Of a stretch of DNA of 64,000 bases, positions 34,673-40,083 are shown piece by piece. Each line of letters starts with the position of its first letter. Positions within the stretch are counted from its first letter, which is position 1. The translations under genes and the position numbers were made by a program. This stretch comes from an uncultured Bacteroidales bacterium. Lineage in GTDB: Bacteria > Bacteroidota > Bacteroidia > Bacteroidales > UBA11471. The DNA lies in NCBI GenBank assembly GCA_947593515.1, contig CANQDQ010000001.1:1-64000 (forward strand). The letters run 5' to 3'. The notes below the pieces were generated by a model, which made no database searches, was not told the origin of the DNA, and saw nothing but the letters and a program-made list of their open reading frames with translations.

Positions 34673-36106
34673 TTATAAGGAATTTAAGAATGCGATAAGC
34701 GCGTCGCGGTCGTCGCGACTCATGTTTTTGAAAATGTTTTTGGAGGCTTCGCCCTCGCCCCCGTGCCACATGATGGCTTCGATGAAATTGCGGGCGCGCC
34801 CGTCGTGTAGAAAATAGGTGTGCCCGTTTACTTTCTCCTGCAACCCGACACCCCAAAGCGGCGTGGTGCGCCACTCGTTTCCGCGAGCCAATCCGCTGAC
34901 ATAATTGTCGTTAAGTCCGACGCCCATGATTTCGGAGCCCATATCGTGCAGCAGAAAATCGCTGTACGGGTGTATGGTCTGGCTGCCTAACCACGAGAGC
35001 TGCGTGTTGTTGAGTAGCACCGAGCCACGCGGACGGGTATGCAGCGTGGGCGTATGGCAAAGGTGGCACTTGGCGCGATAGAAATTCTCTTCGCCCTGCA
35101 ACACCTTCGGGTCGTCGATATTACGGCGAGCCGGCACGCCGAGACTTTGCATATAGAGGTCGACATCTTCCATATCGCCGGTGGAAATATCGAGCCGGTC
35201 GTAGGCAAGCCCCATCATGCTCCCCTGACTCATCTGCAACTGACCTTCACAGATTTCTTCGGGGTAGCGGCTGTTGGTAACGCCCATATCGCTCGAAAAG
35301 CCAAGTTCGACGGTGAGGTCGGCGTGCTGCGCCTTGTTGCCCGACAGCCCCAGCGAGGTTACGCCCCGCTCGCTGATGTAGTTGCAGCGACCGCTGATGC
35401 CGTATTCGGGGTAGTTGCTGCGGGCGGCAAGCTGCTCTATTTCGTGCGGGTCGAGCGACATCATCAGTCCAAGACCGACATGGCGCAAAGGTATGCGCAC
35501 GGAGCAGAAAAGGTCTTCGGGTTTGATGCTGTCGGCATACCATTCCGTTATCGTATAAGAAGGGGCGCACAATTCATAGGTATCGCCGTCGGGGAAAGAG
35601 AACGTTTCGTATGTGTACGTTACCGAAAGTTTGCCTTCGGGCTGCACGCCATAGATAGCCTGATCGTGCAGCACGCGACCGTAGTCCTGAAAGAATGCGC
35701 CGTTTTTGCGGGTGATGTAAACCAACATCGACGAGAAGCCCGTACTGCCCGAACCGCCTTCGCTCCACAGCGTGGGCTTGGTGCGACCGGCATTCCGGTG
35801 GCAGCTCCCGCAGGAATATCCGGCATAGACAGGACCAAGCCCGCCGCCGTAACCGCTGCTGCCGGTACGCACATCGTCGTAGAGGCGGTCGCCGCGGTTG
35901 AAGCGCGTGGCGAAAGCGCCCGACACCCAGTCGGCAGGCGTATCGAAAGCTTTCGACGAATTGAGGAATATCGTCGATGTTCCCGCCGAAAGGGCGTAAC
36001 CGTCGGGGACAGAAACGTCGAGAATATCCATTTCGGTGTCGTCGCTGCAACCGCATAATGTCAAGGAGAAAAGCGCGGCATACAGGCAGAGCAGAGAATG
36101 TTTCAT
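34673..36106 (-). CDS. Di-heme oxidoreductase (DHOR family) lipoprotein
   Basis: A 477-residue c-type cytochrome enzyme. Its leader ends at a Cys near residue 18-20 (LTLCGC), suggesting lipidation. Two heme attachment motifs are visible: CGSCH at 99-103 and CHLCH at 347-351. The segments HTRPRGSVLL, RTTPLWGVG and YFLHDGRARNFIEAIMWHGGE are hallmarks of the DHOR (thiol-oxidoreductase-like) family. In proteobacteria and cyanobacteria this family often sits beside imelysin-type iron-regulated proteins, as it does here. The reaction is not established; periplasmic redox chemistry tied to iron uptake is the usual suggestion. Confidence 0.88.
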   Translation of the reverse strand: MKHSLLCLYAALFSLTLCGCSDDTEMDILDVSVPDGYALSAGTSTIFLNSSKAFDTPADWVSGAFATRFNRGDRLYDDVRTGSSGYGGGLGPVYAGYSCGSCHRNAGRTKPTLWSEGGSGSTGFSSMLVYITRKNGAFFQDYGRVLHDQAIYGVQPEGKLSVTYTYETFSFPDGDTYELCAPSYTITEWYADSIKPEDLFCSVRIPLRHVGLGLMMSLDPHEIEQLAARSNYPEYGISGRCNYISERGVTSLGLSGNKAQHADLTVELGFSSDMGVTNSRYPEEICEGQLQMSQGSMMGLAYDRLDISTGDMEDVDLYMQSLGVPARRNIDDPKVLQGEENFYRAKCHLCHTPTLHTRPRGSVLLNNTQLSWLGSQTIHPYSDFLLHDMGSEIMGVGLNDNYVSGLARGNEWRTTPLWGVGLQEKVNGHTYFLHDGRARNFIEAIMWHGGEGEASKNIFKNMSRDDRDALIAFLNSL

Positions 36107-36136
36107 TTTCCAAGAATCGTTTTATGCGGACAGTCA

Positions 36137-36161
36137 GGAGGCGAATTTTCGCTTCGCCTCC
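36137..36161 (-). promoter_or_regulatory. Intercistronic hairpin between imelysin and DHOR genes
   Basis: A perfect 9-bp stem (GGAGGCGAA and its complement, 7-base loop) lies in the longest gap of the operon (72 bases) and has no T-run after it. An mRNA processing or stabilising role is more likely than termination. Confidence 0.4.
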
Positions 36162-36178
36162 CGACCGGTCCTCGTATG

Positions 36179-37336
36179 TTAGTTCATGCTGCGGGGCTTT
36201 CCGTCTTTGAAAATCAGAAATTCGAGCGTATGGAATCCCCTTACATTCTGGGCGGCTTCTATCTTGTCGTCGGAATCGCCGTCCGCCCAATTCAAGTCGT
36301 CGTAATTGCCGGAAGAGAGAATCTGCACGATAGCGTTTTGGTCGAGCGGCCAACTGTCCATGTTGGGGTCGAGCCCTTCGGCATCGACCGGACCGAACAA
36401 GAAGGCTTCGCTCGTCTCCCACGGCTCGCGGGCGGCAAGCCATGCCTTGCAGGCGTTCTCGAAAGCGACATCGCTCGGAGCATTCCGGAAGGCGACGGCG
36501 GCATCGTAAAGCGCACTGTTTTTCTCTTTCAGCGACGCATAGGTGGGCAGTACCACGTTATCGACATAGCCGGCAACGACGGAATCGAGCTCGGCATCGT
36601 ATTCATCGCCTTTGAAAGTAGTTTGTATATAGGCATTGAGTCCGTTCAACACTTCGACAAGGTCGCCGCACGCCTCCATAGCGTCCGAAGCCTGCGGGCT
36701 ATCGATGTTGTTGCGGAACGGTGCGGGAATGTTCTGAATGGCATCGGCGGCACGGTCGATAGCATGACGCACTTCGGCATCGCGGGCAGCATCTTTGCCG
36801 GCAACGAGTGCGGATATGGAGTGCGGAGCCACCGAAGCATCGAGCGAGCCGTAGTAGGAGTTGCGAATCGAATAGATGTTGTTGGTATAGTCGTCGATAG
36901 AGTGCCAGCTGTACCACGACTCCACCGCATAGAGGGCTTCGGTGGTCTTGCCGCTGACATAGAGGTTGTAGGGGTCGCCTATCTTGGCATCGCCCACTTC
37001 GCCGGCTATATCGCTGCACCCCTCGATGATTTCCTGCAAGCAGCTGAGGGCGCTCCCGTAGGTATCGTTGTCGTGTTTCTTGAAAATCTCCGCATAACCG
37101 GCTCTGCCGTTGTACGATACCGCCCAGTCGCCGTACAGGGTGGCGGCATCGCTTTTCAGGAGCGAAGCGACCTGTGTCATGTAATTGCCCCAGCTTGCCG
37201 CGTTGGAGGCATCGTAGTCGATATCGGCGGCATTTTCGGCATCGGGAGCCACTGGTGCATTTTCTTCCTTGTCGCAAGACGGGAACAGGGCAAGGCATGA
37301 AACCAAACCTGCCGCTAAAAAAAGATGTTTTTTCAT
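36179..37336 (-). CDS. Imelysin-like iron-regulated lipoprotein
   Basis: A 385-residue lipoprotein (leader to Cys21, LFPSC). It is helical and ends with the family motif GxHxxE at 367-372 (GFHTLE), which binds metal in imelysin-like proteins. Segments such as RNSYYGSLD and FLFGPVDAEGLDPNMDSWPLD fit the family. Imelysin-like (IcmP/IrpA) proteins were first called peptidases but are now linked to iron uptake. It is second in the operon, after a porin-like protein and before the di-heme oxidoreductase. Confidence 0.9.
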   Translation of the reverse strand: MKKHLFLAAGLVSCLALFPSCDKEENAPVAPDAENAADIDYDASNAASWGNYMTQVASLLKSDAATLYGDWAVSYNGRAGYAEIFKKHDNDTYGSALSCLQEIIEGCSDIAGEVGDAKIGDPYNLYVSGKTTEALYAVESWYSWHSIDDYTNNIYSIRNSYYGSLDASVAPHSISALVAGKDAARDAEVRHAIDRAADAIQNIPAPFRNNIDSPQASDAMEACGDLVEVLNGLNAYIQTTFKGDEYDAELDSVVAGYVDNVVLPTYASLKEKNSALYDAAVAFRNAPSDVAFENACKAWLAAREPWETSEAFLFGPVDAEGLDPNMDSWPLDQNAIVQILSSGNYDDLNWADGDSDDKIEAAQNVRGFHTLEFLIFKDGKPRSMN

Positions 37337-37372
37337 ATTCGTTGTTTTTTTGATGATTATATTGTTTCCGTT

Positions 37373-38725
37373 TTATTTCCGCAAAAACCAACCGATGTAG
37401 GCGATGCCCAGCCCAAATTCGTTTTCGCTGTTGTAAGGTCCGTGCCCGAACATACGGCCCGTACCGATTTGCCGGGTGGCGTAGTCGAATTTAACCACGA
37501 GGTTGGGCAGCGCGAAATAATTAAGACCGAATGTCCACATACTCGTCTGCAACCGTTTTTCCATGACCTGCCGCGCCTCGCCCCGCTCCTGCGGATTGTA
37601 GTATTCGTAACGGGCGAAGGGATAGAGTACGGGGAATTTTTTCACACGGGGAAAAAAGGCTGCCAGATTCACACCCACTTCGCCGGCATAGCTTACGGCA
37701 TTCCGCGCAACGGGCGTCAGGCGGCTGTACGGAGAGGCATTCGGCAATTTGGTATTGACGCTGCTCACGCTCGCGGAGTTTCCGAGATTGCCGTACACCA
37801 TATTGAGGCGCGCCGTTACATAGCGGTTACGATATTGCGCATCGGCGCTGTAAATGGTTACGGGTACTTTGACGTTATAGGTCTGCGACTTGTCGGCATT
37901 GCGACCCGCATCGGGACAATAATAGACCGACCCGCCGACCCGCAGTCCGGGCACGCCCTCGTAATTGAGGCGCAGAACATACGCCGGCGAAGTGAAGTTG
38001 TCGACCTCGAAAAGCCCCTGCTTGCCGCCGGCTACCCACGTATTGCGGTCGAAACCGTTGGCATTGAGACCGGCAACGACCATCGCCTCGTAGGTGAAAC
38101 GGGCATAGCGGCGACCCAACGTGCCGAAAAGTTCAAGACCCGTTTCGTGCCACGTCGAGGGGAGTATGGTCGTTTCGCCTTCGGGGCGCGAAGTTCCGAA
38201 GAAATTTATCGGTTCGTGTTTGAAATTGGTCAAGCCCACCGGCACGATGATATGCCCGACACGCACATTGAGTTCGGGAAGAATCAGGCGGGTGATGTGG
38301 AATTGTTCGAGAGCGACCTCCCCGCCCTTTTCCATTTCGGTTTCGTATTCGCCGTTTTCGGAATTTTCGAGTTCTACTGCCGTACCGACACCGCCGGCTT
38401 CAAATTCGATTTCGGTGCCGAGAATCCATTTCGGGGTAAATTTGTAATCGAAAGCCACGACAAAACGGGGTATCGACACGGCAGCCCGATGCTCCCGCGT
38501 GTTTCCGTAATTCGTTCCCGAAAAACGATTGCTGCCGTAATCCATGAAATTCGCCAGCACTTCGCCGTAGCCGCCGAAACGAAATTTGCGGAAACCGTCG
38601 TAATCGGCGGAAGCATACGATGCCGATTTCAAATCGACGACAAGGGAATCTTTTTTTCCGGCGACAGCCGTCGCGGCAACGGCAGTCCACAAGGCAAACA
38701 ACAAAACGCTCTTTCTTGCAATCAT
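37373..38725 (-). CDS. Porin-like outer membrane protein heading the imelysin operon
   Basis: A 450-residue outer-membrane barrel candidate with a signal peptide (ending AVA at about 22). The segments GGYGEVLANFMDYG, EQFHITRLILPELNVRVGHIIVPVG and SMWTFGLNYFALPNLVVKFDYATRQ have the alternating pattern of OprO/P-like porins. It carries no TonB box or plug domain, so uptake would be passive or coupled through partners. It is the first gene after a good promoter (38751-38781), with imelysin 36 bases downstream. Confidence 0.75.
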   Translation of the reverse strand: MIARKSVLLFALWTAVAATAVAGKKDSLVVDLKSASYASADYDGFRKFRFGGYGEVLANFMDYGSNRFSGTNYGNTREHRAAVSIPRFVVAFDYKFTPKWILGTEIEFEAGGVGTAVELENSENGEYETEMEKGGEVALEQFHITRLILPELNVRVGHIIVPVGLTNFKHEPINFFGTSRPEGETTILPSTWHETGLELFGTLGRRYARFTYEAMVVAGLNANGFDRNTWVAGGKQGLFEVDNFTSPAYVLRLNYEGVPGLRVGGSVYYCPDAGRNADKSQTYNVKVPVTIYSADAQYRNRYVTARLNMVYGNLGNSASVSSVNTKLPNASPYSRLTPVARNAVSYAGEVGVNLAAFFPRVKKFPVLYPFARYEYYNPQERGEARQVMEKRLQTSMWTFGLNYFALPNLVVKFDYATRQIGTGRMFGHGPYNSENEFGLGIAYIGWFLRK

Positions 38726-38955: not shown

Positions 38956-40020
38956 ATGAAAAAGATATTTATATATTTGTTACCCACGATCGGGTGCTTC
39001 ATCGTAGGGGCGTCTGCCTCTCTGTTCCAACGCAGTGCGCTGGCGGAGTGGTATCCGCTATTGGAGAAAACGGTGCTGACGCCGCCTAATATGGTATTCC
39101 CGATTGTATGGTGCGTGTTATATATATGTATAGGATTATCGCTTTCGCTGATTTTGGCAAAACCGGAACGCCACCGAGCCATCGCAGTTTTGTGGGGCGT
39201 GCAACTGCTGCTCAACTTTTTGTGGAGCGTGCTGTTCTTCTACGCCCGGAATCCGCTGGCGGGCTTGCTCGACATACTGCTACTCGACGCGGCAGTCGTC
39301 GCCTACATCGGCATTTCCTATCCGGTGCGGAGGGTGTCGGCATGGCTTTTCGCTCCGTATCTGCTGTGGCTCGTCCTCGCTACCTATATGAACGGTTACG
39401 TGTATTTCAATAACCCCGATACTGTTTCACTTAAAAATCATACTGTCATGACACACGAAATGCCTAAGCTCCCGTATGCCGCCGACGCACTGGCTCCGGC
39501 AATGAGCAAAGAAACCATCGATTACCACTACGGCAAACATCTGCAAACGTACATCGACAACCTGAACAAACTGATTGCCGGCACGCCTTATGCCGAAATG
39601 ACGCTCGATGAAATCGTAAAGAGTTCCGACGGGGCGATATTCAACAACGCCGCCCAAACGTGGAATCACACCTTCTTTTTCGACACGCTGACCCCCGACC
39701 AAAAAGCCATGCCCGAAAAACTGGCGACGCTGCTGACCAAAGAGTTCGGGTCGGTGGAATCGTTTCAAGAGCAATTCGGGAAAGCGGCGCTGGGACTGTT
39801 CGGGTCGGGCTGGGTATGGCTCGCTGCCGACAAACAGGGCAAACTGCATATCGAAGCGATGCCGAATGCCGGAAACCCGCTGACCAAATCGATGAAACCG
39901 CTGCTCACGCTCGACGTGTGGGAACACGCCTACTACATCGACCACCGTAACCGCAGAGCCGATTTCGTGAAAGCATTTTGGTCGTTAGTCGATTGGGATA
40001 AAGTGGCTGCCCGGATATAA
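38956..40020 (+). CDS. TspO/MBR domain fused in frame to Fe/Mn superoxide dismutase
   Basis: A single 354-residue reading frame. Residues 1-154 are a complete five-helix TspO/MBR protein (LTPPNMVFPIVWCVLYI, LLNFLWSVLFF, ATYMNGYVYFNNP). Residues 165-354 are a complete 190-residue Fe/Mn superoxide dismutase with metal ligands H191, H238, D320 and H324 and the Fe-type Gln234 beside the second ligand (AAQTWNH). The junction NPDTVSLKNHTV reads like a translated intergenic leader. It ends at Met165, where a free-standing SOD would start (MTHEMPKLPY). The product may be a membrane-tethered SOD, or the SOD may also start internally at 39448. TspO proteins bind porphyrins and respond to oxidative stress; SOD removes superoxide. 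Confidence 0.9.
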   Translation: MKKIFIYLLPTIGCFIVGASASLFQRSALAEWYPLLEKTVLTPPNMVFPIVWCVLYICIGLSLSLILAKPERHRAIAVLWGVQLLLNFLWSVLFFYARNPLAGLLDILLLDAAVVAYIGISYPVRRVSAWLFAPYLLWLVLATYMNGYVYFNNPDTVSLKNHTVMTHEMPKLPYAADALAPAMSKETIDYHYGKHLQTYIDNLNKLIAGTPYAEMTLDEIVKSSDGAIFNNAAQTWNHTFFFDTLTPDQKAMPEKLATLLTKEFGSVESFQEQFGKAALGLFGSGWVWLAADKQGKLHIEAMPNAGNPLTKSMKPLLTLDVWEHAYYIDHRNRRADFVKAFWSLVDWDKVAARI

Positions 40021-40045: not shown

Positions 40046-40083
40046 AAAAAGCCGCCCGATATGTTTATCGGGCGGCTTTTTAT
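40046..40083. terminator. Bidirectional Rho-independent terminator
   Basis: A 13-bp GC-rich stem (core GCCGCCCGAT, 6-base loop) is flanked by A and T runs. It serves the convergent TspO-SOD and secG genes. Confidence 0.88.

Follow-up and report, generated by a model that had tools for sequence, protein, structure and literature searches.

The window (the whole 64,000-nt stretch of Bacteroidales DNA that was analysed) contains a single open reading frame on the forward strand (positions 38956–40020, from ATG to TAA), whose 354-aa translation has no internal stop codons. The first part of this frame (residues 1–150; 38956–39405, +) encodes a TspO/MBR half with five transmembrane helices, identified by Pfam family PF03073, the helices of a structural model and the closest solved structure, 4ryi, with which its conserved Trp positions align. 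It is followed by an open, in-frame linker (residues 151–164, FNNPDTVSLKNHTV; 39406–39447, +) and by an Fe/Mn superoxide dismutase (SOD) half (residues 165–354 plus the stop codon; 39448–40020, +), assigned on the basis of Pfam families PF00081 and PF02777, four metal ligands and structural matches. All three Pfam domains scored well above the cut-offs: TspO_MBR at residues 13–150 (131 bits; nearly full length, profile positions 4–144 of 145), Sod_Fe_N at 166–245 (97 bits) and Sod_Fe_C at 254–353 (131 bits). Alignment with the Porphyromonas gingivalis SOD 1ues (residues counted by hand) showed that the ligands H191, H238, D320 and H324 correspond to H27, H74, D157 and H161 of that enzyme.

An AlphaFold2 model built from 68 sequences had a mean pLDDT of 93 and a pTM of 0.59. 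The five helices were placed at residues 2–31, 47–67, 73–96, 100–121 and 133–152 (block pLDDT of 85 or more), and pLDDT values below 50 were confined to the surroundings of residues 160–162, within the linker. The SOD half of the model adopts the usual fold of this enzyme family (TMt of 0.97 against 1ues), its best structural matches being Fe/cambialistic SODs. As modelled, the fusion is thus composed of two well-folded bodies joined by an undefined, floppy hinge. An earlier note, based on inspection of the sequence, had described one stop-free frame encoding a whole five-helix TspO together with a whole Fe/Mn SOD, all four ligands included; Pfam, the alignment and the model all confirm this description. 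Taken separately, each half is an ordinary representative of a known family; it is their joining that constitutes a new variant.

The fusion gene stands alone. Its left neighbours lie on the opposite strand, and on the right it is separated from the convergent secG gene by a strong hairpin with a T run (40046–40081; not assigned to either strand). This near-palindromic structure, a 16-pair stem flanked on either side by A/T runs, was predicted as a − strand terminator; it is kept in two genomes of the same genus, G004 and G005, and is likely to be a terminator common to both genes. An Rfam scan of the window gave no match. The earlier note had also drawn attention to adjacent genes for a cytochrome and imelysin and to a nearby ferritin. 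The di-haem oxidoreductase, imelysin and ferritin-like genes are indeed present; however, the first two are divergent, on the opposite strand, and the third is 3 kb away. The di-haem oxidoreductase, imelysin and an unassigned, porin-like protein are encoded in one run (34673–38725, −), also found in G004 and G005. Among the fusion loci of another family that were looked at, the neighbouring genes encode a patatin, an MFS protein, a glycosyltransferase, a TonB receptor and a thioesterase, and the cytochrome/imelysin neighbours were not conserved outside the genus of the window. Since conservation of the flanking genes is limited to that genus, the argument for oxidative control of heme and iron built on them is not supported, and no functional meaning is attached to the neighbours.

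The fusion, uninterrupted by a stop codon, occurs in at least 22 related gut bacteria; of the 22 species identified, three belong to the genus of the window and 19 to a second Bacteroidales family. Genomes G004 and G005 encode proteins of identical architecture (97% identity). A contig scan identified a fused relative (locus L032) in genome G395, labelled Alistipes sp. RGIG5589, and 19 full-length stop-free fusions, 56–70% identical to the G395 protein, were found among 268 genomes of its family. The earlier note had asked whether the fusion is conserved in other genomes, and it proved to be so, in frame despite differing linkers: from the end of TspO to the SOD core these span 22–36 residues, with almost no sequence shared between groups, and all are in frame. 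The four metal ligands (His, His, Asp, His) are present in all 22 proteins. In another genome of the window's genus, G003, tspO and sod are adjacent but separate; TspO ends at a stop codon and the SOD starts approximately 30 nt further on in a different frame.

Searches of the remaining Bacteroidales that were sampled, of 395 genomes from the same class (mostly belonging to other orders) and of plasmids (at 80% coverage) yielded no further fusions. The other TspO frames in the 395 class genomes are short, most of them 153–195 aa. Long SOD frames of G097 and G239, considered as candidate fusions, turned out to be chance open frames without a TspO. The TspO frame of G410 is also long, and the fused SOD at locus L211 (G591:C5) lacks the normal C-terminal residues after YYIDYR, reflecting either a frameshift or an assembly fault.

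In each of the 22 genomes only one SOD match to the query was detected, namely the fusion itself. No second Fe/Mn SOD, Cu/Zn-SOD or superoxide reductase was found in the genome of the window (99.4% complete), in which the TspO half is also the sole TspO. Five species (G404, G426, G427, G479 and G499) contain a TspO yet gave no SOD match. Their TspO genes (L184, L182, L183, L232 and L233, respectively) are nested in the fused clade, and in the three of these loci that were read through, TspO stops shortly past its last helix (HNPAKILP or HNPAKLLP).

Fused sequences were distributed in the SOD tree among a G395 group of 16 rows (support 100/100), the pair G572–G582, G581 and the window's genus, with the split SOD of G003 as sister to the fusions of that genus. 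Under this tree the fusion could have arisen just once (p = 0.12). The TspO tree, in which the five SOD-less species fall within the fused group, rejects a single origin when only fused rows are considered (p = 6e-5), but not when the nested SOD-less TspOs are admitted (p = 0.11), or these together with G003 (p = 0.25). The nested TspOs read as cases of loss of the SOD half. Judging from the trees, both histories stand: one origin followed by splitting and losses, or two to four origins.

The boundary between the linker and the SOD half is marked by an internal ATG (Met165; 39448–39450, +), proposed here as a second translation start. Residue 165 aligns with residue 1 of 1ues (MTHEMPKLPYAADAL versus MTHELISLPYAVDAL; MTHEM... 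versus MTHEL...) and matches position 1 of the NCBIfam model NF007832. Unfused SODs of the nearest clade begin with M(K/T)H.(M/L)P.LPY, the Met lying seven residues ahead of LPY. The view of the earlier note, that an independent SOD would begin exactly here, is borne out, and by these alignments Met165 is the ancestral SOD start. Eight fusions (G000, G428, G514, G555, G519, G581, G582 and G572) carry a Met at the exact position of the unfused start and the remainder carry one at 3 or at 10–12 residues, so that a Met occurs at most 12 residues from the SOD core in 22 of 22 cases.

Bacteroidetes mostly do not use Shine-Dalgarno sequences, and A residues at −3, −6, −12 and −13 promote initiation, as shown in Flavobacterium (PMC6847099). 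The window's Met165 is preceded by an A-rich stretch (39428–39447, +) with A at −13, −12 and −6 and G at −3. In the 20 nt upstream, junction Mets have on average 8.4 A residues, compared to 7.4 for tspO starts and 3.9 for other internal Mets (p ~ 1e-14); they also exceed other linker codons (mean 7.3), more weakly (p = 0.003), and these p-values are overstated, since the rows are related by descent, and serve as guides only. The frequencies of A at −13/−12/−6/−3 were 0.68/0.68/0.59/0.55 for junction Mets and 0.17/0.12/0.18/0.18 for other internal Mets; the start-associated adenines thus occur at about the frequency found for tspO starts, which is three- to fivefold that of other internal Mets. 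The window's own genes display the same adenine contrast between predicted starts and internal Mets. The start-like context is poor or weak at the junction Met of G538, G539 and G554. A comparison of the three near-identical genomes of the genus gave no significant nucleotide constraint at the junction (20 unchanged codons, p = 0.40). An internal Bacteroidetes promoter ahead of the SOD part (TANNTTTG with an upstream TTG) was also sought and discarded, there being no consistent site. From the conserved Met and its sequence context, Met165 is probably still usable as a start. The dual-start option raised in the earlier note is therefore the one that the comparative data (conserved Met, adenine context) favour, the second start itself being something that we infer.

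Several other explanations of the locus were weighed. The assemblies are drafts and include metagenome bins, in which a stop codon might have been deleted by an assembly or sequencing error; nevertheless, 22 independent assemblies, each of a separate species and with differing linkers, show no stop between the halves, which refutes such an error (its probability is negligible) and means that the fusion is genuine. A near-neutral loss of the stop codon within a tspO-sod operon, with the protein cut in the linker or acting as two independent, uncoupled parts, would agree with the adjacent separate genes of G003 (~30 nt apart, in different frames) and with the five SOD-less TspO species nested in the fused TspO clade, whose existence indicates that TspO is useful alone. 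Against this, the open frame survives large divergence of the linker, all length changes being multiples of three, and among the loci read a separate adjacent tspO/sod pair occurs in G003 alone; we regard this explanation as improbable. In the explanation that we favour, the fusion is real, is under selection and takes the place of a separate SOD gene.

A more serious contender, although still an unlikely one, is that only the full-length protein is made, Met165 being a relic and all SOD activity membrane-bound. It accords with a frame kept open in 22 species and with the loss of the A-rich context in three of them, and the linker is A/N/T-rich in any case, as its other codons show (mean A count given above). 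It does not readily explain why a Met has been retained near the SOD core in every fusion or why upstream A content is higher for the junction Mets than for the rest of the linker codons, and it would leave the cell without a soluble SOD. The reading with two starts is favoured over the others on this comparative evidence.

The side of the membrane that a tethered SOD would occupy was approached through the charge distribution of TspO. In all 16 unfused TspOs and in 20 of the 22 fused ones (36/38), the core loops on the N-terminal side contain more Lys and Arg than those on the opposite side, an excess that becomes blurred or weak once the linker is counted. According to the positive-inside rule, the core-loop excess predicts an N-in, C-out arrangement and hence a periplasmic SOD, and we lean towards this location. 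A cytoplasmic position, a sub-question that cuts across all the readings, with or without a second start, is only somewhat less probable than not. It would be in line with the C-termini of Rhodobacter sphaeroides and Pseudomonas fluorescens TspO, reported or predicted to point toward the cytoplasm (PMC4237140, PMC2699550), and with the derivation of the fused SODs from leaderless, cytosolic-type enzymes, as they cluster in the SOD tree with leaderless SODs, apart from a leader-bearing lineage. The core-loop charges of both the fused and the unfused TspOs argue for the opposite orientation, and the published orientations differ among themselves, as stated in a review (PMC8243069).

Signal-peptide-like leaders were recognized at 10 script-classified unfused SOD loci of the second family and at further loci read by eye. 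With so many of its unfused SODs bearing leaders, an exported SOD seems to be a familiar need in this group. Leader-like N-termini were recorded for the unfused SODs L158, L159, L162, L163, L165, L169, L171, L174, L204 and L146, each of which has a Met inside or just past the hydrophobic stretch. Two additional loci deserve mention. L223 (G566:C120:18538-19119 plus upstream sequence) encodes a TspO-less SOD with an N-terminal leader, MKKIFVLLLPFVACIATRLCAES, and a spacer of about 40 residues followed by MKHTMPELPY; this signal-peptide-like leader resembles the first helix of the window TspO (MKKIFIYLLPTIGC) and is perhaps a remnant of a fusion. In G155 a leaderless SOD lies next to a second one (L141:1984-2613), whose leader (MDKRTFLKTGLLGMGGLFAAPLL) looks like a Tat or Sec signal.

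Under the favoured reading with two starts, translation from the first ATG would yield a 40-kDa protein in which TspO acts as a membrane anchor and carries the SOD on a flexible linker. Insertion of TspO with its N-terminus inside would, less securely, position the tethered enzyme at the outer surface of the inner membrane. Ribosomes would also initiate at Met165, as the comparative data suggest, producing a free 21-kDa cytosolic SOD. One gene could in this way supply SOD to two compartments; many unfused relatives use a signal-peptide SOD for export. That the gene stands in for a separate SOD by giving both a TspO-anchored form on the outside and a free cytosolic one is, in our estimation, slightly more probable than the contrary. 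The fuller version, in which a periplasmic tethered SOD and an internally initiated cytosolic SOD arose together up to four times in Bacteroidales and replaced separate SODs, is put forward tentatively and is rather doubtful as a whole; if true, it would mean that TspO works at a superoxide-producing site.

Where oxygen leaks in, free porphyrin and iron favour the formation of superoxide. Retention of the SOD at such a porphyrin/superoxide site may be the simplest explanation of why the two proteins are fused, and the tethered enzyme would clear superoxide where TspO handles porphyrin. A coupling of the TspO half to porphyrin sensing, as suggested earlier, is something that we infer. A Bacillus cereus strain without TspO accumulates porphyrin and shows a redox imbalance even without oxygen (PMC13185565).

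The function of TspO is debated across life, and the protein has repeatedly been tied to porphyrins and oxidative stress. A SOD fusion that is the only SOD in 22 species connects TspO physically with superoxide, and the two-domain protein allows both activities to be studied together. It may also provide a simple case of a gene whose two starts serve two compartments, in a phylum that mostly dispenses with Shine-Dalgarno signals. No paper describing such a fusion was found in a search of freely accessible journal papers for TspO together with SOD; the architecture is a new variant in the literature searched, made of known parts.

The fusion can be compared with four known systems. With the TspO/MBR family (PF03073; 4ryi of B. 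cereus and 4uc1 of Rhodobacter) it shares the five helices, and the WY..L......PP loop-1 motif and a late Trp align with 4ryi, but the window TspO bears a 190-residue enzyme at its C-terminus. With Fe/Mn SODs of the SodFM2 type (1ues/1qnn, the cambialistic enzyme of P. gingivalis, and 8avl, SodFM2 of Bacteroides fragilis) it has the ligands and the start residue in common, and the SOD half, whose nearest match is the P. gingivalis enzyme, is 57% identical to 1ues; in contrast to 1ues-type SODs, however, an entire membrane protein is encoded ahead of it in the same frame. The signal-peptide SODs of the G395 family (such as L159, L162, L169 and L204) appear, as the fused SOD may, to be exported by means of an N-terminal part, which in their case is a short, cleavable-looking leader on a different SOD lineage, whereas in the fusion it is a five-helix protein. 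Finally, bacterial dual-start genes, such as cheA and infB, produce a short form from an internal in-frame start. The fusion resembles them in being one frame with two plausible starts, of which the second would give just the enzyme, but differs in that its predicted second start descends from a once separate gene.
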